Shown here piece by piece: positions 2,532 to 49,535 of a DNA stretch of 51,923 nt. The notes under the pieces were generated by a model that searched no databases, had not been told where the DNA came from, and was given only the letters and a program-made list of their open reading frames with translations. This DNA is from a virus. The first letter of the stretch is position 1. The number at the start of each line of letters is the position of its first letter. The stretch covers positions 1 to 51,923 of the IMG/VR virus record IMGVR_UViG_3300017996_000002. The stretch is one strand, 5' to 3'. Made by a program: the position numbers and the translations under genes.

Positions 2532-3575
2532 ATGCTCCTAGTGTATCGCTACCGTGTCAAGTCCCTCGAAGGGTTGCTTAAGGCTCAATCGCGAGCGGTG
2601 AACTTCGTCTGGAATTACTGCAACGAAACCCAAAAGTCGGCGTTGAAGTGGAACAAGCGCTGGCCGTCCGGTTTTGACTTGAACAAACTCACGGCAGGCA
2701 CTAGCAAGGAACTGCGCTTGCACGCGGGCACGATCAACTCGGTGTGCGAGCAATATGCCAAGTCGCGCAGTCAGAAAAAGAGGCCCTTTCTTCGCTGGCG
2801 CGGCAAAAAGTCCTTGGGCTGGGTGCCGCTCAAGGGTCGAGATTTGAGGCGAGAAGGCGATGCGTTCCGCTTCGCGGGCAATACATTTCGTGTGTTCTAT
2901 TCGCGTCCATTGCCGGACGGCAAGATCAAGGATGGCAGTAGCTTTTCGTGCGATGCGCGCGGTCGCTGGTTCTTGAACATTGTGATTGAAGTGGCCGATG
3001 CGACGCCTCGCCAAGTTGCTACCGCTATTGGTATTGATTTGGGATTGAAAAACTTCGCCGCTCTTTCCACTGGCGAAACTATCGGTAATCCGCGCCATTT
3101 GAGAAAACTTGCGGGCGATCTTGCCGTAGCGCAGCGTGCGGGCAAGAAGGGCCGCGCGCGCAACATTCACGCCAAGATCGGCAACGCGCGAGCCGACTTT
3201 CACCACAAACTTTCGTTCCGCATCGTGCGAGAGTTCGATTACATCGCGGTAGGCAACGTCAATGCCGCCGGACTCGCCAAAACCAACATGGCGAAATCCG
3301 TTCTCGATGCAGGTTGGTCTAGCTTCCGCAACCAACTCCGCTATAAAGCTATTAAGCACGGCGCATGGTTCGCAGAGGTTAGCGAATATGGTTCTACCCG
3401 AGTCTGTTCGTCTTGCGCATGCGAGACGGGGCCGAAAGGTGTCGCAGACCTCGGAATAAGAAACTGGATATGCAGTGAGTGTGGTACTTCGCATGATCGT
3501 GATACTAACGCTGCTCTAAATATCCTTTTCCGTTCGGGACATCGAACGCCTGTAGAGGGAATCCCCGTCCTTTAG
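2532..3575 (+). CDS. tnpB: TnpB, RNA-guided nuclease of an IS200/IS605-family element
   Basis: 347 residues, full length for this family. TnpB proteins cut DNA using a guide RNA made from the element's right end. The N-terminal half carries the family signatures KSRSQKKRPFLRWRGKKSLG (about 77-96) and VPLKGRDLRREGDAFRFAGN. RuvC-I aspartate is D169 (GIDLG). RuvC-III is HDRDTNAALNI (D324). A zinc ribbon is formed by C292, C295, C314 and C317. At the RuvC-II site the usual Glu is replaced: IAVGNVN has Gly at 241. Subfamilies with a displaced acidic residue exist, and E285 (VSEYGST) is a candidate. The 3' end runs directly into the right-end hairpin. It stands 8 bases after the exported-protein gene with no visible left end. 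Probably a degenerate or domesticated insertion. Confidence 0.9.
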   Translation: MLLVYRYRVKSLEGLLKAQSRAVNFVWNYCNETQKSALKWNKRWPSGFDLNKLTAGTSKELRLHAGTINSVCEQYAKSRSQKKRPFLRWRGKKSLGWVPLKGRDLRREGDAFRFAGNTFRVFYSRPLPDGKIKDGSSFSCDARGRWFLNIVIEVADATPRQVATAIGIDLGLKNFAALSTGETIGNPRHLRKLAGDLAVAQRAGKKGRARNIHAKIGNARADFHHKLSFRIVREFDYIAVGNVNAAGLAKTNMAKSVLDAGWSSFRNQLRYKAIKHGAWFAEVSEYGSTRVCSSCACETGPKGVADLGIRNWICSECGTSHDRDTNAALNILFRSGHRTPVEGIPVL

Positions 3576-5571: not shown

Positions 5572-5694
5572 ATGAACCGCCCGCCCATCCTATGCAATTG
5601 CGCGCCTGACGCTCAGCACCATGAATACGACATATGGAACGAACACGACGGCGAGGGCTCACTCGAAGGCTCGGGCGACGGGGATGATTATTAG
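5572..5694 (+). CDS. 40-residue acidic protein
   Basis: ATG 5572, preceded by AAGGA. The product has CNCAPDAQHHEYD and an acidic, Gly-rich end (SGDGDDY). A TGTGACG box (5509-5515) and TTGACG (5517-5522) lie upstream, but no good -10 was seen. Function unknown. Confidence 0.4.
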   Translation: MNRPPILCNCAPDAQHHEYDIWNEHDGEGSLEGSGDGDDY

Positions 5695-5696
5695 AA

Positions 5697-5739
5697 TGTG
5701 ACGTGGGTCTCGACGCCTCGGTCAGTTATGCGCGATAAT
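5697..5739 (+). promoter_or_regulatory. promoter with CGAC-N6-GTCA operator, for the sliding clamp
   Basis: TGTGACG (5697-5703), 7 bases, CGAC-N6-GTCA (5711-5724). The -35 is TCGACG (5710-5715), then 18 bases, then GATAAT (5734-5739). The same layout recurs at 18664 and 48690. The pseudo-palindrome covers the -35, as expected for a repressor site. Confidence 0.65.
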
Positions 5740-5772: not shown

Positions 5773-6576
5773 ATGTTTAAATTACCAATCGACCTGAACG
5801 CCATCAAGGCGCTCGAATTGTTCGCCGGCAAGGACGACGTATTGTTCGCCGGCAAGGACGACGAGCGGCACTACTTGAACGGCATCTGGGTCTGCGCAAT
5901 CGATGCGCGCACCGTGCGCGTGGTCGCGACAGACGGGTATACCTTGGCCGAGCATCGCGTCGCGCTGCAGGAGGGCGGCATGGAGTTCACCGGTGGATTC
6001 CCTCAGTCGGGGATCATCCCGCGCGACGCGTTCAAAGCACTCAAGGGCTTTACCGTCTTATCAATCGAGCCGGGCTCCAAGGGCACATTCGACCCGCCAC
6101 GCTACTCAATCAATGACGGCGAGCGCGTCGGCAAACTGATCGACGGCACGTTCCCTGACATCGATCGGATATGGCCGTCGTCTGTCAGTCTCGAAGCAAC
6201 ACATTTGGATCCGGACTACGTCGCACGCGTCGGCAAGGCGGCGCACCTGCTTGCCGGTAAGGGCCTGCTCCGCTCGGCCTTTTTTCAGAACGGGTCGAAC
6301 CCCACGGTGTTCAAAGTGCGCGACGACTTCGCGGGCCTCATCATGCCCGAGCGCACGGACAAGGCGAGCATGCCTGAGTGGACGCCGACCAAGTCGCTCG
6401 GAGATCCGATCCGCGAGGCCGCCAAAGAGACAGTGATTGCGCTGCGCGATCTGTATGACTGCGCCGCCGCCGGCATTCTGCCGAAGTCGACCGACGATGT
6501 TCTTAGCAACGCGCGTAAGTTACTGACGCGGATCGGGATCATGACGCGTGACGACATCGCGGGCATTAACAACTGA
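5773..6576 (+). CDS. DnaN-like sliding clamp (beta-clamp domain protein)
   Basis: 267 residues. The pattern YLNGIWV, then VVATDGYTLAEHRV, then SGIIPRDAFKAL, then GTFPDIDRIWP matches phage homologues of the DNA polymerase III beta subunit, shorter than the bacterial 366. It would tether the phage family A polymerase (16430) to DNA. A 24-bp tandem duplication near the start repeats LFAGKDD. The C-terminal 60 residues are an extra helical region. It is expressed from its own operator-bearing promoter at 5697. Confidence 0.7.
   Translation: MFKLPIDLNAIKALELFAGKDDVLFAGKDDERHYLNGIWVCAIDARTVRVVATDGYTLAEHRVALQEGGMEFTGGFPQSGIIPRDAFKALKGFTVLSIEPGSKGTFDPPRYSINDGERVGKLIDGTFPDIDRIWPSSVSLEATHLDPDYVARVGKAAHLLAGKGLLRSAFFQNGSNPTVFKVRDDFAGLIMPERTDKASMPEWTPTKSLGDPIREAAKETVIALRDLYDCAAAGILPKSTDDVLSNARKLLTRIGIMTRDDIAGINN
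5818..5863 (+). repeat. 24-bp tandem duplication inside the clamp gene
   Basis: 22 identical bases at 5818-5839 and 5842-5863 (period 24) duplicate LFAGKDD in frame. The exact identity suggests a recent event, or an assembly artefact. Confidence 0.8.
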
Positions 6577-6794: not shown

Positions 6795-6847
6795 TCCGAC
6801 CCGTCCGCCTAGCGCCGCATGATGCAGCGCTAGGCGGACGGGTCGGA
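6795..6847. terminator. 21-bp perfect inverted repeat between convergent operons
   Basis: 6795-6815 and 6827-6847 are exact reverse complements, with an 11-base spacer that itself contains GCAT/ATGC. It lies between the plus clamp operon and the minus replication operon, so a bidirectional transcription stop is likely. It lacks a T tract on either side. A structural or recombination role is possible. Confidence 0.55.
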
Positions 6848-9360: not shown

Positions 9361-9642
9361 TTACGCGTTGAAAAAATTGGCGGCTTCTTTCCGCAGCGCG
9401 AGCGGCGCCCGCTTCACGTGCTCGTTGCCGTCCACAAGCCCTTGCCGAATGATAACGAAGTACCGGCGCTTAATCGCTTCTTTCATGATCGCCGTGCGCA
9501 AGTCGGTCATTGTGCCAAAGTGGTAAGAGATCGTTCCCGTTGCAAGTTTCGCCTTGGCTGCGAGTTCGCGCCGGGTCAGATTGCGGTATCCGACGCGTTG
9601 CGCCAGTAGCACGGCCTCGTCGAGTATCAGTTGTTTGCTCAA
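9361..9642 (-). CDS. minimal TetR-type DNA-binding regulator
   Basis: 93 residues. The start is TTG 9642 behind an AGGAG site 8 bases away. Residues 4-60 match the TetR N-terminal domain: LDEAVLLAQRVGYRNLTR, then ELAAKAKLATGTISYHF (HTH, recognition helix about 35-42), then MTDLRTAIMKEAIKR. Normal TetR proteins are about 200 residues with a ligand-binding, dimerising C-domain. Here only some 30 residues follow, so ligand control is unlikely and dimerisation must differ. TetR-family operators are often TTGACC-type palindromes. Such sites (TGAC-N6-GTCA) recur at phage promoters, two of them at this operon's own promoter, so autoregulation is likely but inferred. Confidence 0.8.
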   Translation of the reverse strand: MSKQLILDEAVLLAQRVGYRNLTRRELAAKAKLATGTISYHFGTMTDLRTAIMKEAIKRRYFVIIRQGLVDGNEHVKRAPLALRKEAANFFNA

Positions 9643-11746: not shown

Positions 11747-11789
11747 TTGACACGGCCGTCATTTAGCCTGAGACTGACGGCTCGGTCAA
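11747..11789. promoter_or_regulatory. double operator between divergent replication operons
   Basis: Two perfect TGAC-N6-GTCA elements lie at 11748-11761 and 11775-11788, centres 27 bases apart. Leftward promoter: TTGACC (11789-11784), 17 bases, CTAAAT (11766-11761), 30 bases before ATG 11731. Rightward: TTGACA (11747-11752) is a consensus -35 but the -10 is poor. The operators cover both -35 regions, so one protein could control the helicase/TetR/primase operon and the 11814 operon together. Confidence 0.7.
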
Positions 11790-11813: not shown

Positions 11814-12695
11814 ATGCAAATTATGCTTGACACAACGACATATGAGCACCCGGCCGCGCTGCGCGCCCTGGCGAAGTTCATTGAAGCGATAGCCGCAATT
11901 GAAGACGCGACACCCGCCGCTGTCTCTGCTAGCGGTATCGTAGAGATCAAGGACACAAAGGCCGCCGCTGAGTTCTTCGGGACGGACGGCAAGGCCGATA
12001 CGGTCGCGAGAGAGACGGCGACCATTCTCGACTTTAAGACGTCGGACAGTCTACCGCCCGACCACTTCGAAAAAACTGGCACGGCCGCGCCGCCCGTGAT
12101 TCCGCCGCCGTCGGCCGGCCTCTATACGTCGAGCGGTACAACGGCGGCGATTCCGCTACCGCCTGTGCCCGTGCCTGTGCCTGTGCCCGTGCCGCCGTCT
12201 GCATTGCCGCCCATCCCGAAGCCGCCCGGCGAAGCGCCCGCGCCTTTGTTCGACTTGGCTGGCGTTCAGTATGACGCAAATCTGCACAGTTCGACGAAGT
12301 CGAAGACGATCGATGGCCGATGGAAAGCACGCCGCAACCGAGGCGGGTCGCAGATTCCGCCGGCCGGCGCCGTCACAGTTGTTGCTGCGCCCCCGATCCC
12401 GCCGCCGCCCGCTTCGGTGAGTCCCCAATCCGACGACGGGGACGACATCGACGTCGAGGATGATTCCGGCGAACCTACTGGACTACCGGCGGGGTCGGCG
12501 CCGATCGGCATGACAACTGCCGCGGATTTTCTGAAGTTCATTGATAAAATCACCGAAGGGCTAAACGCCAGTACGGTGACACAAGCGAAGATTGCGGAAG
12601 TATTGACGCGATTCTCGATCGATTCACTGTTCTCGCTGAGCGCGCGGCCGGAACTTATCGCGGGTGTTTCCGCTGCCTTTGGGTTCGCGCCGTGA
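11814..12695 (+). CDS. proline-rich phage hypothetical protein
   Basis: 293 residues. Three parts: a helical N-terminus (ALRALAKFIEAIAAIED), a proline-rich middle with a PVPVPVPVPVPP run near residue 118, and a conserved block FDLAGVQYDANLHSSTKSKT followed by DGRWKARRNR (about 150-175). The C-terminus is helical (AADFLKFIDKITEGL). I recall similar DANLHSSTK blocks in proteins beside phage recombination genes, but the function is not known. First gene of the rightward replication operon. Confidence 0.65.
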   Translation: MQIMLDTTTYEHPAALRALAKFIEAIAAIEDATPAAVSASGIVEIKDTKAAAEFFGTDGKADTVARETATILDFKTSDSLPPDHFEKTGTAAPPVIPPPSAGLYTSSGTTAAIPLPPVPVPVPVPVPPSALPPIPKPPGEAPAPLFDLAGVQYDANLHSSTKSKTIDGRWKARRNRGGSQIPPAGAVTVVAAPPIPPPPASVSPQSDDGDDIDVEDDSGEPTGLPAGSAPIGMTTAADFLKFIDKITEGLNASTVTQAKIAEVLTRFSIDSLFSLSARPELIAGVSAAFGFAP

Positions 12696-13855: not shown

Positions 13856-15033
13856 GCACCGGACACGCACCTGTTCCGCCTTCGTTTCTCGATACCGTGG
13901 TGCATTGTCACGGGTCGCTGGCCCTCGCGCGAGCGAACCCGCAGCCCGATACGGACGCCACGCGCGAGGGCAACGTTGCGCACAAGGTCGCGATGCTGTA
14001 TGCGCTCGCTAGCACGCGAGACGGCATAGCGCCCGAATCTAAATGCTGCGTACTCCCGAAGCTCGGCGACATCATCGACGGAATCCGCGTCGACGCCGAA
14101 ATGGTCGGCGGCGCGAAACTTTACGCCGAGGCGCTCGAAGGCTTCGCCGGGAACCCCGAACAAACAATCCCCATTCACCGAATACATCCGGGTCTAATCG
14201 ATCCTGAAACCGGCGAGATCACGGAAATTTGTTTCGGCACGCCCGACTTTTGGCAATACCGCCATGAGACAAAAACGCTGCGAATTACGGATTATAAATA
14301 CGGACACTTGTACGTCGAAGTTTACGAGAACTATCAGCTAATAGCGTATGCGGCTGGCGCGCTTGAATTGCTCGCGAAAACGGGCGTACTCGAAGCCGAT
14401 ATCATCGTCGAGTTTCTGATCGTGCAACCCCGCTGCTATAGCGCCGATTCGCCCGTGCGCGAGTGGGTTACGTCGGCGTCGAATCTGCGGACGTACATAA
14501 ACGAAGCCGCGCAAGCCGTGGCCGACGCATTGGCGCCGAACCCGAAGACGAAAGCCGGGACGCATTGCCTATTCTGCCCCGCTCGCGGGATTTGCAAGAC
14601 GGCCCACAAGGCGAGCACGGCAATCCTTGAATACGCCGGCACGGTCGAGGCGATGTCCCAAAATCCGCACGAGGTAGGGTTGCGACTCAACCTGATTAAT
14701 GCCGCGATCACGATTCTAAAGGGCGTCGGCACGGGGCTTGAGGAGCAAGCTATGCAGATGATCCGGCGTGGCGCCGTCGTGCCGTGGTTCAAGATTGGGC
14801 ATAGTACGCCGCGCGAAGTATGGACAAAGCCGGCGGCGACTGTCGCAACGCTCAGCGTACTTGCCGGCAAAAAGATAGCGCTGACAGAACAAGCCTACGC
14901 TATGACACCGAAACAAGCGATTAAAGCGGGTATACCCGAGGCGCTTGTGCGGATGTTCAGTACGCAACCGCACGGCAAGGCACGACTCGAAGCTGAGAGC
15001 GACGCAAGTCTAGCAAGAGTTTTTAAACGTTGA
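13852..15033 (+). CDS. DUF2800-type RecB/Cas4-like exonuclease
   Basis: 393 residues from GTG 13852 (GTGA overlap with the previous stop); the frame upstream to 13828 is not needed. PD-(D/E)XK features: REGNVAHKVA near the N-terminus, then LRITDYKYG with the catalytic D-x-K, then VEVYENYQLIAYAAGAL. A Cys cluster HCLFCPARGIC (about 236-246) resembles the iron-sulfur or zinc part of Cas4-like nucleases. With the DUF2815 binding protein next door it makes a typical phage recombination pair. Confidence 0.8.
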   Translation: MSTGHAPVPPSFLDTVVHCHGSLALARANPQPDTDATREGNVAHKVAMLYALASTRDGIAPESKCCVLPKLGDIIDGIRVDAEMVGGAKLYAEALEGFAGNPEQTIPIHRIHPGLIDPETGEITEICFGTPDFWQYRHETKTLRITDYKYGHLYVEVYENYQLIAYAAGALELLAKTGVLEADIIVEFLIVQPRCYSADSPVREWVTSASNLRTYINEAAQAVADALAPNPKTKAGTHCLFCPARGICKTAHKASTAILEYAGTVEAMSQNPHEVGLRLNLINAAITILKGVGTGLEEQAMQMIRRGAVVPWFKIGHSTPREVWTKPAATVATLSVLAGKKIALTEQAYAMTPKQAIKAGIPEALVRMFSTQPHGKARLEAESDASLARVFKR

Positions 15034-15057
15034 CCGCGCGGTCAGTCAGTGTATAAT
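15030..15057 (+). promoter_or_regulatory. promoter with perfect palindromic operator
   Basis: TTGACC (15030-15035), 16 bases, TATAAT (15052-15057). The 14-bp sequence at 15031-15044 is a perfect palindrome of the TGAC-N6-GTCA class and covers the -35. This is the best promoter in the window and serves the single-strand binding protein and polymerase genes. Confidence 0.8.
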
Positions 15058-15096
15058 TTCGTTCGATCGTTTCAATCATAAACGGAGCATTCACAG

Positions 15097-18655: not shown

Positions 18656-18663
18656 TGTAGAAC

Positions 18664-18706
18664 TGTGACGGAAGTCTCGACGCTTCGGTCAGTTTTTAGG
18701 CATAGT
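18664..18706 (+). promoter_or_regulatory. promoter with CGAC-N6-GTCA operator, for repeat protein 1
   Basis: TGTGACG (18664-18670), 7 bases, CGAC-N6-GTCA (18678-18691). TCGACG -35 (18677-18682), 18 bases, CATAGT (18701-18706). The 120-base leader to ATG 18827 contains a possible short frame ending in an ATGA overlap with that start, but no clear start codon downstream of the predicted transcript start. Confidence 0.6.
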
Positions 18707-18826: not shown

Positions 18827-19603
18827 ATGAAATTGACAAAAGTGATCGTTAAAAAATGGGATGCTTGCGCCGAAGGGTACAAGTATTTCTTAGAGAATTT
18901 CCCGCAAGGCGGGGACTATGCAGCCGTGCAGTCCAAGCTACACGCCGACAAAAAATTTGAATGGGCGTCATGGCTCACGAACGCAGCATGGAAGGCCGCA
19001 TTTGAGACGCCGGCCGAAATGTACGCGCTGACAAAATCGGAAGTCGATCAAACGATTGCAGACGCGAAGGATTCGCCACAATCAGCCACGGGCTACGGCA
19101 GCACGGCGGCGAGTTCGGGCGACGGCAGCAAGGCGGCGAGTTCGGGCAACTACAGCAAGGCAGCGAGTTCGGGCTACGGCAGCACGGCGGCGAGTTCGGG
19201 CGACGGCAGCACGGCGGCGAGTTCGGGCAACTACAGCAAGGCGGCAAGTTCGGGCAACTACAGCAAGGCGGCGAGTTCGGGCAACTACAGCAAGGCGGCG
19301 AGTTCGGGCGACGGCAGCACGGCGGCGAGTTCGGGCTACGGCAGCACGGCGGCGAGTTCGGGCTACGGCAGCAAGGCGGCGAGTTCGGGCGACGGCAGCA
19401 CGGCGGCGAGTTCGGGCTACGGCACCGTTGCCTTTGTGGCTGGCATCGATGGGTCGGCAAAGGCCGGCGACAACGGCTGTATCGCACTGTGCTACTACGA
19501 CGGCAAGCGCAATCGAGTGCTCGTCGGCTATGTCGGCGAGGATGGGATCGAGGCTGACACGTTCTATGTCGCTCGCGGAGGGAAATTAGTCAAGCAAGTC
19601 TGA
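18827..19603 (+). CDS. nonapeptide-repeat protein 1
   Basis: 258 residues. The N-terminal 85 residues are helical (KKWDACAEGYKYFLENFPQG). Residues 89-196 hold 12 tandem 9-residue units of the form G-x-x-S-T/K-A-A-S-S, where x-x is YG, DG or NY. The C-terminal domain ends GIEADTFYVARGGKLV and matches that of the protein at 48765. Ala/Ser/Gly repeats with a fixed period fit a beta-solenoid or a flexible display rod. Its private promoter carries the phage operator. Function unknown; possibly host interaction or a decoy. Confidence 0.75.
   Translation: MKLTKVIVKKWDACAEGYKYFLENFPQGGDYAAVQSKLHADKKFEWASWLTNAAWKAAFETPAEMYALTKSEVDQTIADAKDSPQSATGYGSTAASSGDGSKAASSGNYSKAASSGYGSTAASSGDGSTAASSGNYSKAASSGNYSKAASSGNYSKAASSGDGSTAASSGYGSTAASSGYGSKAASSGDGSTAASSGYGTVAFVAGIDGSAKAGDNGCIALCYYDGKRNRVLVGYVGEDGIEADTFYVARGGKLVKQV
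19091..19414 (+). repeat. 12 x 27-bp tandem coding repeat
   Basis: Twelve in-frame 27-bp units beginning GGC, each ending GCG(A)GCGAGTTCG-like. Variation is confined to codons 2, 3 and 5 of each unit. This is a coding minisatellite, not a CRISPR array, as there are no unique spacers. Confidence 0.9.
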
Positions 19604-40823: not shown

Positions 40824-41789
40824 TCATCTGGCCCGAGCCAGGGCCGATTCCAGCAAGCCCCGAGGTCGGGACGCTTTCGCACGTGCTACGGCCTCGGCGA
40901 CGTTATCGACCGCGGGAAGCACGGCCTTGCTCGTGCATCGGCAATTTATCAACTCGCCAGGCAATACATATGCGCCCTCGTCACTATCCCACATGCCCGC
41001 GCTGATCAGGTAGGCTTTGCCGTCCATCTTAACGTGCGTCTTACGCGGAACCTTACCGCCGGCCGAGTGCATCCATATCGCATGCGTTACACCGATCTCT
41101 TGCCGGCGGGTGCGTTCGATGGTCGCCTTCGCTTTCGCGTTCTGATCGCCGGCAATGAGCGCCGCGCGCTCGCGCGTGATCCCGTACGTTTCGCGTAGGT
41201 CGACAGACAGCGCGTGCATGTCGCCGCCTTTCATGACGGACGCCCATACTTTCGTCTGTACATCCTTGAGGTATTGCGCCGGTATCGAGCGAATCAGGTT
41301 CACTTGTTCGGCAGCCACGGCTTGATAGGCCGCGATGCTTCCCGGCGTCGGATCGAACTTCACGGTAAAACCCGCGTCCTTAAACGCCGCCTTCATTTGG
41401 ATTTGAGTCACGCCGAACGCTTTACGGGCGAACTTACGCGATAGCTCAAGGCTGAGTTTTTCAATTTTCAGCGTCCACTTTTTGCCGATGCGGGTAAGCG
41501 CCCGACGAATGAATAGCGACGAGTTCGGCGGGTCCGCATCCGTCGCCATGTCAGGATACCAGCAAGCAAAATTACCGGCGGCGTCGACACGCAGCGGGTG
41601 AAATACACTTCGGGTATCGTGCGCAAATTCGGCGGGCTCGATAGCCGAATAAGCGCCGAGCACAGCGGCCCGCACGTCCTCATGCATGACATTGACGAAG
41701 GCGATCATCTCGGCCTCGTACCAACGCCGTACCCCGACATTTGGGTGTATGGCGCGGACAGTTACCGGCTTATCCTTGTTTGGGCGCAT
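40824..41789 (-). CDS. head morphogenesis protein, SPP1 gp7-like
   Basis: 321 residues. TIERTRRQEIGVTHAIWMHS, then GKVPRKTHVKMDGKAYLISA, then VLPGELINCRCTSKAVLP is the gp7/Mu F signature (R.THxxMDG, INCRC). A minor head protein placed after portal genes in most phages. Here it is separated from portal by the 41770-45215 cassette. Confidence 0.85.
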   Translation of the reverse strand: MRPNKDKPVTVRAIHPNVGVRRWYEAEMIAFVNVMHEDVRAAVLGAYSAIEPAEFAHDTRSVFHPLRVDAAGNFACWYPDMATDADPPNSSLFIRRALTRIGKKWTLKIEKLSLELSRKFARKAFGVTQIQMKAAFKDAGFTVKFDPTPGSIAAYQAVAAEQVNLIRSIPAQYLKDVQTKVWASVMKGGDMHALSVDLRETYGITRERAALIAGDQNAKAKATIERTRRQEIGVTHAIWMHSAGGKVPRKTHVKMDGKAYLISAGMWDSDEGAYVLPGELINCRCTSKAVLPAVDNVAEAVARAKASRPRGLLESALARAR

Positions 41790-42495
41790 CGGTAATTACG
41801 TGTTGATGCGGAGTGAATGACTCGAACAACTTCTTAAGATGCGCGACGTGTTCGGTGCGGCTGTCCAGATCGGCGCCCGCGTGTGCGTTGATTGGCGGCC
41901 GGTCATCGGTGAGCTTATCGCATTCCCATGCGTCGAGGATGATTCCCGCGCAGCAAATAATACTCGCAAGATGGGGAACTAGCGTTCCCTGCAGCTCGCC
42001 CTCGGCGTCCAGGCCGAGCATGTCGCCGTCGCACCACTCACCCTCTTGCAGTCGCGCCATGTGGCGATAAATCGCGTCGAGGTAAATCGAAATACGCACG
42101 CCCGCGCGCCGCCAGTTGTATTTGCCGTACTTCAAGGCGCCCTCGGTAAAGCCGAGCGCGGCGTATCGCATGACGGCCGTGGGTACTAGATGCATGGAAA
42201 GCTTCCCGGCGCCTACAGCGTCCTTGGGATTCGTGGGCTTCGTGATCGTTCCGGTAAATACGGGCTGCGCGAGCGGCGCAGATAAAGGACAGTCTTTATC
42301 GTGATTCACCGCGGCGCCTAAAGGGCCGCACGAACAACAGCATAAAAATGCGTCGACTTTTTGCGGCGCCGGCACGGGCTCGGCCGGCGGCTTCATATCG
42401 AGCGACCCGCAATTCAGGCAGAATTTGCCGCTGGCGTCCGCGGTGTGCCCATGCACCACGCAATACCGGCTGATCGAATCCGTTTGTGTGCTCAC
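41770..42495 (-). CDS. dATP/dGTP diphosphohydrolase-like protein (MazZ-like)
   Basis: 241 residues from GTG 42495, chosen because AGGAGGG lies 7 bases upstream; ATG 42519 is the alternative. The N-terminal 70 residues hold Cys pairs (CLNCGS, CCCSCG). The core NPKDAVGAGKLSMHLVPTAV, then LGFTEGALKYGKYNWR, then YRHMARLQEGEW, then LASIICCAGIILDAWE is the dGTP diphosphohydrolase N-type domain of phages, a MazG-like all-helical fold. It would trim (d)NTP pools. In 2-aminoadenine phages the relative is MazZ; PurZ was not found here. Confidence 0.75.
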   Translation of the reverse strand: MSTQTDSISRYCVVHGHTADASGKFCLNCGSLDMKPPAEPVPAPQKVDAFLCCCSCGPLGAAVNHDKDCPLSAPLAQPVFTGTITKPTNPKDAVGAGKLSMHLVPTAVMRYAALGFTEGALKYGKYNWRRAGVRISIYLDAIYRHMARLQEGEWCDGDMLGLDAEGELQGTLVPHLASIICCAGIILDAWECDKLTDDRPPINAHAGADLDSRTEHVAHLKKLFESFTPHQHVITDAPKQG

Positions 42496-42496
42496 C

Positions 42497-44113
42497 TTAA
42501 TCCCTCCTATGTCGACCATTTACGATCGTAAAAAGCTGGCGCTTACCGCCTGGGTATATGAGCCCGTCCGTGTGCATCCATGACGAGGGCGAACCCTTTG
42601 CGTAAGGTTGATCAGTCTTCGCGTTGTGACCGACTTGCATACAGCCTTCGTTGATTCCCGGCCCGTGGCCGTGCCCAATCATAGTCTTTTCGCCGATGCG
42701 GCGCATATTCTTAATACTGCCCTTCGAACCATTCGGTCCTTTGTGCCCGTGATATCCGCATTGGATACCTTCAATTATGAGCGACTCGCCGAGCGCGAGC
42801 GCCCGCAGATTCTTTTGCTTGCGCGCCGTGATCAAGAACGGAAACGGGGACGGGTACGAGGGCATACCGTCGACCAACATAGCGCCGTCAACCATAAACT
42901 TAGCGCACCGCAGATAGAAGGCGCGGTTTTTTGTTGCCAGTTTTTTCCAGTCTTTATCTCGCACCCACTGGCGCAAAAAATCGTCGTGATTACACGCGAC
43001 CACGAACGACATTGCCCACGGCGGCGTACGCGTGCCGGCGTAACTGATCGAGAATTTTACTTCCGCCTCGACGTCGTCCATATCCTCGGTAGCTAGGGCT
43101 TGCTCGGCGAACGGGTCGCGGTCCTCATGCGGATTGTGGCTTTGCCCGTCGTCCAAGTCGTGCCACACGAGGCGCCGCGGTCGGTATCGTTCAACTACGC
43201 CCTTGGGTCCGAATGTAGCGACGTCCACGACGGGATCGGCAACCCGGGCGTGAGTATCCCCGAGCACGAGCGCCGCCGGCCTCGGGGCTTTACGGACACC
43301 CGAGGGCGTGAATTTTTTGTCGAAATCGATAAACTCGCCGCGCGAGTTCATATTCAAATGCCGAAGCCAAAAGTACGGCCCTTCGATTTCGACGAGCACG
43401 GCGCCGACCGTATGGTGAAAATCGCCGAGCTTACCCACGCGCGAGCGCGTGTAGTTCTTTTTCGTGATCGCGCCCGTGGTCGTGAGCGCCGCGGCCATCT
43501 TATGCCCGGGCGTCGCTACAGTCTTAAATTGCAACTTCGTGTGTCCGACGATTTTCGACTTCGCGCCAAAGCCTTCAAGGCCGTTGATGGGCTCCGAGGC
43601 CGTCGGGATAATATTTATATCCGCCAAAAACTCAAGGTTTTTGTTGAGCGAACGGCGGACGTTCCATAGATACGGCATGACACGCTCGTCCCACCATTGG
43701 CTCGATTCGTCCCGCGCCGACCATATCGACGTTGGATTGCGGTAGCTCAAGGGCTGGATCAGAAGTTCAGCGTTGAAATGCTTTACGGCATGCATGAGCG
43801 ACGCCCACGCGGCCGGGATAACCGGCGTAGCGTTCTGAGCCGCCGTGATGATAAACGTGGTGCAGTCGGGCCGCAATTCGCGCGTGAAAACGGGGAATTG
43901 TTCCTCGACTACATCGCCGCCGCCGCGCTGCGTTCGAACCTTCGCGCTTTTCGGATTCGTGGTCGAGTAACAATACGATTTTTCGGTGACGCCGGTGCTT
44001 TTCGTCCCGGTCTCTTTAACGCACGCCCAACGCTGGCGGCCGTTTGCGGCGTGCCCATTGCGCAACATGAGCCCGCCGCAGCGAGGGCATTTATACTCAC
44101 CGGATTTTTTCAC
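42497..44113 (-). CDS. T5 A1-like metallophosphoesterase with N-terminal zinc ribbon
   Basis: 538 residues from GTG 44113 (GTGA overlap). Residues 8-31 form a zinc ribbon (YKCPRCGGLMLRNG with RWAC). The middle FIITAAQNATPVIPAAWASL, then NPTSIW, then GEFIDFDKKFTPSGV resembles phage T5 protein A1. Metallophosphoesterase motifs: GDTH (285-288), HD (318-319), NHDD (375-378), GHGHG near 485. T5 A1 is needed for host DNA degradation and the second step of DNA entry. The T5-like assignment is from memory of the family. Confidence 0.75.
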   Translation of the reverse strand: MKKSGEYKCPRCGGLMLRNGHAANGRQRWACVKETGTKSTGVTEKSYCYSTTNPKSAKVRTQRGGGDVVEEQFPVFTRELRPDCTTFIITAAQNATPVIPAAWASLMHAVKHFNAELLIQPLSYRNPTSIWSARDESSQWWDERVMPYLWNVRRSLNKNLEFLADINIIPTASEPINGLEGFGAKSKIVGHTKLQFKTVATPGHKMAAALTTTGAITKKNYTRSRVGKLGDFHHTVGAVLVEIEGPYFWLRHLNMNSRGEFIDFDKKFTPSGVRKAPRPAALVLGDTHARVADPVVDVATFGPKGVVERYRPRRLVWHDLDDGQSHNPHEDRDPFAEQALATEDMDDVEAEVKFSISYAGTRTPPWAMSFVVACNHDDFLRQWVRDKDWKKLATKNRAFYLRCAKFMVDGAMLVDGMPSYPSPFPFLITARKQKNLRALALGESLIIEGIQCGYHGHKGPNGSKGSIKNMRRIGEKTMIGHGHGPGINEGCMQVGHNAKTDQPYAKGSPSSWMHTDGLIYPGGKRQLFTIVNGRHRRD

Positions 44114-44304
44114 TTGGGCTTGACCCGGGCGCCACGGGCGAAGCGCGCGGGCTCGTCCGGCACGGATTTAAGCGGGGCATCGACTGTCCGGCGTATGCTG
44201 GCGACAGCGCGCTTGTACGTCGGCGAATACTCGTCGACCGTCTGGCGCATGGATTGCTTGCGAGGTTTATTGATCAAGGTAAATCGCTCCAAGTAGGCAG
44301 ACAT
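44110..44304 (-). CDS. 64-residue basic hypothetical protein
   Basis: Overlaps the A1-like start by GTGA. Hydrophilic and basic (KPRKQSMRQTVDEYSPTYKR, then RRTVDAPLKSVP). Unknown. A second small frame (44267-44359) overlaps its start. Confidence 0.5.
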   Translation of the reverse strand: MSAYLERFTLINKPRKQSMRQTVDEYSPTYKRAVASIRRTVDAPLKSVPDEPARFARGARVKPK

Positions 44305-44359
44305 AGGAAAGGATCGACAACGCGACGATAGCCATTATGAACCGCTCCGAGGATTTCAT
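44267..44359 (-). CDS. 30-residue single-span membrane peptide
   Basis: ATG 44359 overlaps the stop of the upstream membrane-protein gene (ATGA). FIMAIVALSILSYVCLLGAI is one transmembrane helix. It overlaps 44304 by 38 bases. The overlap pattern favours a real gene, but its size limits confidence. Confidence 0.4.
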   Translation of the reverse strand: MKSSERFIMAIVALSILSYVCLLGAIYLDQ

Positions 44360-44622
44360 CGCTTGCGGTACTTCCACATAAAGAACAACCACGCCGCATT
44401 ACCGGCAACGATGCAAAGGCCGCCGGCAAAACTTAGCCATTGGGCCAAGTGGGGATAATAGTACAGATTCCAGAATCCCCAAAGGGTCATCGCCGCCGTT
44501 GCGAATTTGGACACACCGCGGGCTTGTTTGTCTTTCATGATCGCGCGTACGTGCATCCAAATGGATGCCCCGCCTAAGAATTCAAACGCTCCATTAACCG
44601 CGTCGGGTATCTGTACGATCAT
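44356..44622 (-). CDS. small multi-span membrane protein
   Basis: 88 residues with two or three hydrophobic spans (AATAAMTLWGFWNLYYYPHL, then LSFAGGLCIVAGNAAWLFFM). RGVSKF..AAMTLWGFWN resembles PQ-loop-like phage proteins. Overlaps the HD gene stop by ATGA. Transport of a nucleotide-related solute is only a guess from its neighbours. Confidence 0.6.
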   Translation of the reverse strand: MIVQIPDAVNGAFEFLGGASIWMHVRAIMKDKQARGVSKFATAAMTLWGFWNLYYYPHLAQWLSFAGGLCIVAGNAAWLFFMWKYRKR

Positions 44623-45215
44623 CTCGACAACTCGGCGAAGCGGTGCAAAAATGCGTCGCGCGCCGTGCGCGGCGATAGCGCCCTAGCAGAGAACCACGGA
44701 AGCACAAGCGCGAGATTCGCGCGAAACTCAGCCGTAGGCGTCAACCAATCGGCGGTCACGCCCGAGGGCAATAGGTCGCGCGCCTCGATAAAGAGCGCGT
44801 ACCAATCGGCGCATTTTACGCCCGGACTATGTCTCTTGGGCAGCCCGTAATATGCGCGCATGCGAGCTTCTAGAGCTCCCTCCATACGGCGATAATCGGG
44901 CAATAGGGCTTTCCACGGGGTCGCAATGTCGGATACGTACGCCTCGTGTGCATCGTGCATAAGCCCCTCAAAGGGGGTAGCCGGCGCGATTCTGCACTCC
45001 GGAACTTGCGCGACGAGTTGCGAGACAAGTACGCTATGTTCAGCGACCGAGTAGAACTCCCGCGTGTGGCCCGTAAATCGACACTGCATTGACGCCGCGT
45101 GTGCGATTTCCTCGATATCGAAATGCGGGGCGGCTATGTAGAAACGGCGGCCTTTCACCGTTTGGATAAATAAATTTTTCTCTTTTTCCAAATACAGATC
45201 GGCGGCTTGCTGCAT
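44619..45215 (-). CDS. HD-domain phosphohydrolase (YfbR/DatZ-like)
   Basis: 198 residues. FDIEEIAHAASMQCRFTGHT, then FYSVAEHSVLVSQLVA, then EGLMHDAHEAYVSDIATPWK holds the HD-type metal site: H of AEHS, HD of MHDAHE, and a later D (VKCADWYALFIEARD). Relatives remove phosphates from deoxynucleotides, and DatZ of 2-aminoadenine phages removes dATP. First gene of the embedded cassette, with GGAG before ATG 45215 and the operator promoter at 45242 upstream. Confidence 0.8.
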   Translation of the reverse strand: MQQAADLYLEKEKNLFIQTVKGRRFYIAAPHFDIEEIAHAASMQCRFTGHTREFYSVAEHSVLVSQLVAQVPECRIAPATPFEGLMHDAHEAYVSDIATPWKALLPDYRRMEGALEARMRAYYGLPKRHSPGVKCADWYALFIEARDLLPSGVTADWLTPTAEFRANLALVLPWFSARALSPRTARDAFLHRFAELSR

Positions 45216-45241
45216 ACGTTACTCCGTTTTATGGTTTTCGC

Positions 45242-45270
45242 ACGTTAGCGGAAACTGACCGAGGCGTCAA
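45242..45270 (-). promoter_or_regulatory. operator-bearing promoter inside the structural operon
   Basis: Perfect TGAC-N6-GTCA at 45256-45269. Reading leftward: TTGACG (45270-45265), 17 bases, TAACGT (45247-45242; a weak -10). The -35 overlaps the portal stop codon. Drives 45215 onward without needing the late promoter. Confidence 0.6.
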
Positions 45271-48604: not shown

Positions 48605-48689
48605 TACGTCGGTCCTATGATCGGCCGGAACGAAGTGAGACGTGCCGGCTTATGGTGAATTGAGCGCCTAGCGTACCAGATCACAAAAC

Positions 48690-48732
48690 TGTGACGCAAG
48701 TCTCGACGCGCCGGTCAGTTTGGGGGTAGGAT
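48690..48732 (+). promoter_or_regulatory. promoter with CGAC-N6-GTCA operator, for repeat protein 2
   Basis: TGTGACG (48690-48696), 7 bases, CGAC-N6-GTCA (48704-48717). TCGACG -35 (48703-48708), 18 bases, TAGGAT (48727-48732). The upstream TCACA-N4-TGTGA (48681-48694) is a further inverted repeat lying between this gene and terL, so late transcription could also be touched. Confidence 0.65.
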
Positions 48733-48764
48733 CGGCGCATCTAACAACCGAAGGAGTTTCCCGC

Positions 48765-49535
48765 ATGACGACGATTAAGAGCTACAAAGGCTTTGACCAA
48801 AATTGGAAATGTCGCGATTTCCAATACACGCTAGGCGGCGAGTACGAGCACTCGGGCGAAATCAAAGCATGTAACGCGGGCTTTCATGCATGCGAATATC
48901 CTCTCGACGTGTTTAATTACTATCCGCCCGCGTCGTCGCGTTTTGCGGAAGTCGAACAATCGGGCGAGTTGAGTCGCGAAGAAGGCGATTCTAAAATCGC
49001 TAGTTCAAAAATCCGCGTAAAAATTCAGCTATCGTTCGGCGATCTTATTAAGGCCGCGATTGATTACACGTTCTCTCGATCCAAACCGGAAGGCGAAAAA
49101 GCCACGGGGGATCAGGGCGCGGCTTCGGCCACGGGCTATCAGGGCGCGGCTTCGGCCACGGGCAATCAGGGCGCGGCTTCGGCCACGGGGGATCAGGGCG
49201 CGGCTTCGGCCACGGGCACTCGCGGCGCGGCTTCGGCCACGGGCAATCAGGGCGCGGCTTCGGCCACGGGCAATCAGGGCACGGCTTCGGCCACGGGCTA
49301 TCAGGGCGCGGCTTCGGCCACGGGCTATCAGGGCGCGGCTTCGGCCACGGGCTATCAGGGCCGAGCGAAAGGAATTCTAGGCTGCGCGCTCTTACTGGTA
49401 GAACGCGACGCTTTCGGCGAGATCATCTCGGCGGCCGGCGCTATCGTCGGTAAGAAAGGGATCAAGCCCGATACGTTTTACATGCTCAAGCGCGGCAAAT
49501 TCGTACAGGCGAAACTTACGTCGATAAAATCATGA
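48765..49535 (+). CDS. nonapeptide-repeat protein 2 with DUF7666-like N-domain
   Basis: 256 residues from ATG 48765 behind AAGGAG. Residues 1-95 ([19 protein letters not shown], then [20 protein letters not shown], then [10 protein letters not shown]) match the DUF7666-like family found in phages and bacteria. Residues 115-195 hold 9 tandem 9-residue units, G-x-Q-G-A-A-S-A-T. The last 55 residues end [16 protein letters not shown], matching the 18827 protein. Function unknown. Confidence 0.8.
49107..49349 (+). repeat. 9 x 27-bp tandem coding repeat
   Basis: Nine in-frame units G-D/Y/N/T-Q/R-G-A/T-A-S-A-T. Period and layout equal those of the 18827 repeats, with most variation at codon 2. Confidence 0.9.

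Follow-up and report, generated by a model that had tools for sequence, protein, structure and literature searches.

A putative operator-controlled locus for host-DNA disposal genes in the head operon of a dwarf myophage

Results

Genes between the portal and MuF genes

The DNA analysed here (51,923 nt, hereafter the window) is an entire IMG/VR virus record, IMGVR_UViG_3300017996_000002, with ends identical over 103 bp (terminal redundancy, 1-103/51821-51923). It is the genome of a soil phage classed as a dwarf (phiPLPE-like) myophage. A megablast search of the region against phage records gave no match, which makes even its nearest named relatives distant ones. The window has no tRNA genes; a transposase gene (phrog_506) lies at 2532-3575 on the plus strand.

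The cassette lies on the minus strand, bordered upstream by the portal gene (46982/46946-45267; Phage_portal_3, 1e-68) and downstream by a MuF-like head morphogenesis gene (41789-40824). Family and profile matches recovered every gene, with its position, that a preliminary description had named from the letters of the DNA. The first encodes a Dmp/YfbR-type HD deoxyribonucleoside 5'-monophosphatase (45215-44619; phrog_318, 1.7e-59; HD motif EHS, HDAHEAY..SD), homologues of which we counted in 244 phage records. It is followed by g88, an 88-aa membrane protein with three transmembrane helices and a predicted SemiSWEET fold (44622-44356). A 30-aa single-TM open reading frame (MKSSERFIMAIVALSILSYVCLLGAIYLDQ; 44359-44267), read straight from the sequence, has a start that overlaps the g88 stop. 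The small basic protein g64 (44304-44110; probable TTG start at 44274) occupies a slot that is kept in relatives. The last two genes encode a T5 A1-type metallophosphoesterase (44113-42497; phrog_1745, "DNA transfer protein"), which carries an IS1/IS1595-type zinc ribbon at its N-terminus, and a dATP/dGTP diphosphohydrolase (dGTP_diPhyd_N; 42519-41770; PF18909, 69.6 bits; cut-off 27). The PHROG label "endolysin; inhibits RNA polymerase" (phrog_2252/phrog_5033) sits on relatives of this diphosphohydrolase and looks misannotated.

Because the HD protein is of the Dmp type (phrog_318), two T5 pre-early proteins, Dmp and A1, have homologues in the cassette. Together with one dNTP-pool enzyme, these homologues support a functionally coherent cassette, and the takeover content proposed in the preliminary description was borne out. 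The cassette genes overlap or almost touch one another, the diphosphohydrolase gene extends 20 nt past the MuF start, and we found no terminator-like site at either border. Late transcripts must therefore traverse the cassette too, and transcripts from the cassette must continue into the head genes. A moron would have a promoter and a terminator of its own; here the promoter is present, the terminator is absent and MuF is overlapped.

An operator-promoter at the portal stop

A sigma70-like promoter precedes the cassette (45270-45242, minus strand), with a -35 box TTGACG, a 17-nt spacer and a -10 box TAACGT. The TGA within the -35 box is the portal stop codon. Embedded in the promoter is a perfect TGAC-N6-GTCA palindrome (TGAC-GCCTCG-GTCA). 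The promoter and the operator overlapping the portal stop were thus as first described; the "perfect copy" was not, as the site matches the consensus of the window elements at 5710, 18677 and 48703 at 18 of 19 bases.

These three elements (repeat family D11) have the same core with CGAC replacing TGAC. Each is a 35-nt promoter element on the plus strand: the CGAC-N6-GTCA variant at 5694-5728 precedes a sliding-clamp-like gene, and those at 18661-18695 and 48687-48721 each precede a phrog_4433 gene. The two phrog_4433 paralogues (18827-19603 and 48762-49535, plus strand) contain 27-bp tandem repeats and are collagen-like. The sliding-clamp-like protein (5773-6576, plus strand) also scores to RusA-like resolvase PHROGs, and one of the labels must be wrong. 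A near-perfect 26-bp inverted repeat with a 1-nt loop (6795-6847) lies between its gene and the primase gene.

In relatives we observed the same operator either just past the portal stop or spanning it. The exact portal-stop operator was present at 14 of 23 loci with a portal-MuF metallophosphoesterase compared to 2 of 63 loci without one (Fisher value 2e-8, which overstates independence because the compared loci are related). It is absent or degenerate in some cassette-bearing relatives (L015, L024, L046 and L031).

Distribution of the operator

We counted TGAC-Nk-GTCA for k = 0-15 with 40 shuffles as the baseline and observed a sharp maximum at k = 6. The main operator-bearing relatives carry 6-44 copies each (shuffle averages 0.2-1.0, about 0.6). 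The window carries six (0.5 expected), fewer than most relatives, and an incomplete relative (G005) carries only two. Two A1-bearing phages of other families, G008 and G009, carry none.

Oriented operators with a -35/-10 pair lie mostly ahead of early or replication genes. In the window, one operator-promoter (TTGACCGCGCGGTCA ... TATAAT; 15030-15058, plus strand) precedes the gene for the ssDNA-binding protein (SSB), its TGA being the exonuclease stop codon. Two further operators (11748-11761 and 11775-11788) lie in the divergent promoter region between the helicase gene and the gene at 11814, which an operator-promoter also precedes. In relatives, operator-promoters precede the divergent gene of the helicase region, SSB and many small early open reading frames. 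Operators occurred at 0.50 per kb outside structural genes and at 0.20 per kb inside them, with a density of 0.57 per kb for the portal-protease interval, and some operators fall inside late coding sequence. These data support the view that the cassette has a promoter/operator in common with the replication genes. By this sequence pattern the cassette is likely to be expressed early; late read-through would also be compatible.

A candidate regulator and its cultured carriers

The candidate regulator is a 93-aa mini-TetR (9361-9642, minus strand) encoded between the primase and endonuclease/helicase genes. ORF clustering showed that this protein adjoins the primase in 10 of 11 operator-bearing genomes. 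Its TetR_N helix-turn-helix (HTH; PF00440) scored 38.5 bits against a cut-off of 24. The protein consists of the HTH and a short tail, and lacks the C-terminal ligand/dimerisation domain of the TetR family. Nine new IMG/VR loci found via the TetR alone held 83 N6 palindromes in 137 kb (0-6 for other spacings), compared to 10 in 845 kb of control loci selected by g88. The operator and the 93-aa TetR-like protein therefore co-occur, an association from which we infer that mini-TetR may bind TGAC-N6-GTCA. We also considered p98, a 98-aa protein of the relatives, as the operator-binding protein and rejected it: the window and G007 have operators without p98, and G009 has p98 without operators.

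The mini-TetR and its synteny also occur in cultured phages of Klebsiella, Edwardsiella and Vibrio. We counted 15 operator sites in Klebsiella phage 1611E-K2-1, 14 in JD001, 12 in Edwardsiella phage MSW-3 and 9 in Vibrio phage CP-T1; Acinetobacter phage AP22, without the TetR, has one. In 1611E-K2-1 most sites stand 44-82 nt ahead of the start of a gene, and the TetR gene is one of these genes. An operator lies just upstream of the TetR gene itself in 1611E-K2-1, JD001 and MSW-3. The window and loci L355, L356, L357 and L359 exemplify how the TetR-type protein goes with the operator in uncultured and cultured phages alike. In 1611E-K2-1, opposite-strand gene blocks occupy the portal-MuF, MuF-protease and tail intervals, each starting behind an operator. 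CP-T1 has similar opposite-strand blocks with operators beside them, and its MuF-protease block contains a Dmp homologue. The late operon cannot carry opposite-strand blocks, so these relatives are expected to express them independently from inside the late region.

A paper on phiPLPE-like phages mentions tetR, and the part of it available to us does not describe the dispersed operator (PMC3391216). The GC-rich repeats of that paper were considered as the operator and rejected, being tandem repeats of another sequence. Counterparts of p98 and the metallophosphoesterases were sought in Jedunavirus, where gp38/gp39 are look-alikes, and gave no HMM match. Within the literature library searched, nothing relevant turned up on Jedunavirus operators or on SemiSWEET in phages.

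The same regulon would also fit a mini-TetR acting as an immunity repressor, with the cassette as a lytic unit that is silent in the lysogen and has no special timing within the lytic cycle. CP-T1 was obtained by inducing a lysogen, and the dispersed operators resemble the stoperators of cluster A phages (PMC6550527). Against this, there is no integrase among the window genes examined, and integrated relatives in bacterial genomes are without the operator. The TetR gene of the Klebsiella phages is part of the replication operon and follows an operator, as a lytic switch would also predict. We regard immunity repression as possible but on the unlikely side, and prefer early lytic expression of the cassette.

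The A1 metallophosphoesterase and its DNA-binding modules

The A1-type protein matched phrog_1745 over residues 69-535 (7.4e-126). Its catalytic residues (GDxH, NH, HG and HxH; D286/H288, N375/H376, H455 and H481/H483) are invariant in the alignment. The zinc ribbon scored just above its cut-off (NF050000, 28.5 bits against 28). A PDB sequence-profile search gave no match. An IMG/VR search with A1 as a single query gave no matches either; its relatives there required an alignment query.

The window has no p98; its A1 has the IS1-type zinc ribbon instead. Most relatives encode p98 (winged-helix-like model, pLDDT 82, weak PDB matches) directly before the metallophosphoesterase. In all 35 p98 loci (L286-L320) the next gene was a metallophosphoesterase, 28 of the phrog_284 type and 7 of the A1 type. 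Among 94 A1 proteins, 34 had the ribbon, 22 had p98, 38 had neither and none had both; the exclusion probability of 9e-6 is nominal because related sequences are counted. This pattern suggests that the ribbon and p98 may be alternative means of aiming A1 at DNA. A shared N-terminal motif like "T-x-x-DF-x3-HDP", perhaps a docking segment, occurs in p98, the phrog_284-type metallophosphoesterase and ribbon-less A1 (L016, 10418-11796; L006, 3881-5703; and others).

g88 and nucleotide disposal

Relatives of g88 are encoded at 136 or more IMG/VR loci. We obtained no match to g88 in Pfam (including SWEET/PQ-loop), PHROG, NCBIfam or PDB profiles, and none of g88, g64 and p98 belongs to a family in phage annotation libraries. 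The AF2 model of g88, built with 42 sequences, had a pLDDT of 95. Its top five structure matches were all SemiSWEET-type (TM 0.81-0.83, probability 1.00), with E-values of only 0.06-0.3.

Dmp was present within the 6-kb flanks of 25 of the best 80 g88 loci compared to 3 of the best 80 portal loci. At 21 of these 25 (within g88 loci L206-L285), Dmp lay less than 1 kb away, always on the same strand, and the two genes adjoin in unrelated phages. T5-like phages yielded no g88 homologue in our search. In such phages Dmp leads to free bases leaving the cell (PMC13250531). Given this neighbourhood and the roles of A1 and Dmp in T5-like phages, the model suggests nucleoside export by g88 as the most economical guess. 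Known SemiSWEETs have sugar specificity, which calls for caution with the nucleoside reading. The preliminary description had proposed nucleotide salvage; Dmp and the SemiSWEET-fold protein point more to disposal.

History of the locus

According to the preliminary description, portal and MuF are normally adjacent. This holds for distant relatives only (gap of 200 nt or less at 20 of 82 loci), as every close relative carries a 2.6-3.4 kb insert between the two genes. In the portal tree (70 rows), a portal-MuF metallophosphoesterase was present in 21 rows, 20 of which clustered together, with the window inside (support of 99/95 for 19 of these 20). The clustering indicates a fixed arrangement across the clade, not an acquisition by the window phage. 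Comparison of the spacing across relatives thus did not uphold a cassette gain by this phage: the locus is clade-fixed and its contents are exchangeable. The relatives are metagenomic contigs, many of them incomplete, each search covered the best 80 loci at most, and tests across relatives are not independent.

In more distant kin (portal about 38-49% identical), the portal often lies close to MuF, or the module follows MuF. Among bacterial genomes, our search found only distant prophages (Paraburkholderia, Bosea, Photorhabdus, Pantoea, Methylobacterium and others), and these prophage relatives had neither the cassette nor the operator. The order of the slots was constant: small protein, DNA-binding module, metallophosphoesterase, nucleotide enzyme. 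The A1 and phrog_284 metallophosphoesterases were swapped at least five times, the first slot four times and the nucleotide-enzyme slot (dNTPase, dNMP kinase, DUF6378 or PAPS-reductase-like) five times. By eye, a zeta-toxin-like kinase domain lies downstream of, or is fused to, the portal frame in two distant relatives, L008 (11238-12497) and L009 (9457-12195), and these two loci also have unknown genes in the portal-MuF interval.

An A1-type or phrog_284-type metallophosphoesterase beside the portal throughout the 20-row clade could instead mark a head function, in DNA packaging or ejection by the portal or as a virion-carried protein, with a promoter that merely boosts the late operon. Consistent with this, Obolenskvirus Scipio has a NinI-type metallophosphoesterase in its portal-MuF interval, and in T5, A1 is required for the second step of DNA transfer as well (PMC13250531). 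We nevertheless consider a head function improbable. A1 lies among replication genes in other phages, its neighbours here are nucleotide enzymes and not structural genes, distant relatives have the module after MuF or none, and the operator is common to replication genes. The repeated swaps and the contents of L008 and L009 favour a tolerated insertion site (moron hotspot) with no joint function and a promoter that came with the cargo, a reading that the fixed functional order of slots, the metallophosphoesterase after p98 at every p98 locus and the g88-Dmp pairing in unrelated phages render equally improbable.

Discussion

On balance, we favour the interpretation that this segment is a clade-wide plug-in locus in the head operon for lytic, early-type genes, probably serving host-DNA disposal under a shared operator. 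The proposed sequence of events is as follows. Mini-TetR would bind the operator and switch the regulon, either from early to late or as a lysogeny repressor. Its own promoter would therefore turn the cassette on early, and read-through would express it again at a later stage. A1, guided to DNA by the zinc ribbon, would degrade host DNA, Dmp would remove phosphate from dNMPs, the SemiSWEET-fold protein would let nucleosides out and the diphosphohydrolase would tune the dATP/dGTP pools. Overall, this would amount to a T5-style route for host-DNA disposal.

A more far-reaching version is that g88 represents an unrecognised phage family of SemiSWEET-fold transporters which, in concert with Dmp and a metallophosphoesterase of the A1 or another type, exports host-derived deoxynucleosides, the whole route standing under a mini-TetR regulon whose operators mark early promoters in late operons. 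We put this forward tentatively and with some doubt. It would make g88 a candidate exporter for host-DNA breakdown products, a step that is poorly understood in T5 too. The preferred reading of an operator-controlled plug-in locus explains, for a large group of dwarf myophages, the accessory genes of the portal-MuF interval by a common operator-promoter, and not by the late operon alone.

A close functional parallel is T5, in which A1 is essential for host DNA degradation (PMC13250531). The A1 and Dmp families stand side by side among the T5 pre-early genes as they do in the window, and by analogy host-DNA breakdown and nucleotide disposal are expected in both. T5 has these genes in its terminal repeat and delivers them to the cell first, whereas those of the window lie inside the head operon behind an operator-promoter. 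The window A1 also carries a zinc ribbon, unlike T5 A1. The autographivirus Cuernavacavirus RHEph02 has genes of the same three families next to one another (A1-Dmp-phrog_2252), but in its replication region and not between portal and MuF, and the 19 kb read contained no TGAC-N6-GTCA. With the SemiSWEETs (PDB 4rng and 4qnc), g88 has the three-helix fold in common (TM 0.83 to 4rng over 82 columns); it differs in its 14-15% identity, the lack of a profile match, its phage origin and its place beside a dNMP phosphatase.

The regulatory layout resembles the stoperators of cluster A mycobacteriophages (PMC6550527, PMC9283540), where many dispersed sites serve one phage regulator; here the TetR is the candidate regulator. 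The cluster A sites are asymmetric 13-mers bound by the immunity repressor, whereas those described here are palindromes over -35 boxes with a TetR-type HTH candidate. Morons and other early genes in structural modules also resemble the cassette, as accessory genes of the late region that have a promoter to themselves. Unlike morons, the cassette has no terminator of its own, has frames that overlap late genes, is clade-fixed and belongs to a genome-wide operator set.

The nearest cultured systems are the tetR-bearing phiPLPE-like dwarf myoviruses (CP-T1, 138 and phiPLPE; PMC3391216) and Jedunavirus (JD001 and 1611E-K2-1), which share the portal family and the replication synteny. They differ from the window in that their blocks are on the opposite strand and have no A1. 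Those examined (CP-T1, 1611E-K2-1 and JD001) likewise have the mini-TetR, operator-promoters and blocks in the portal-MuF and MuF-protease intervals. Because the candidate regulator and the operator occur together in cultured Klebsiella, Vibrio and Edwardsiella phages, the proposed logic can be tested at the bench.
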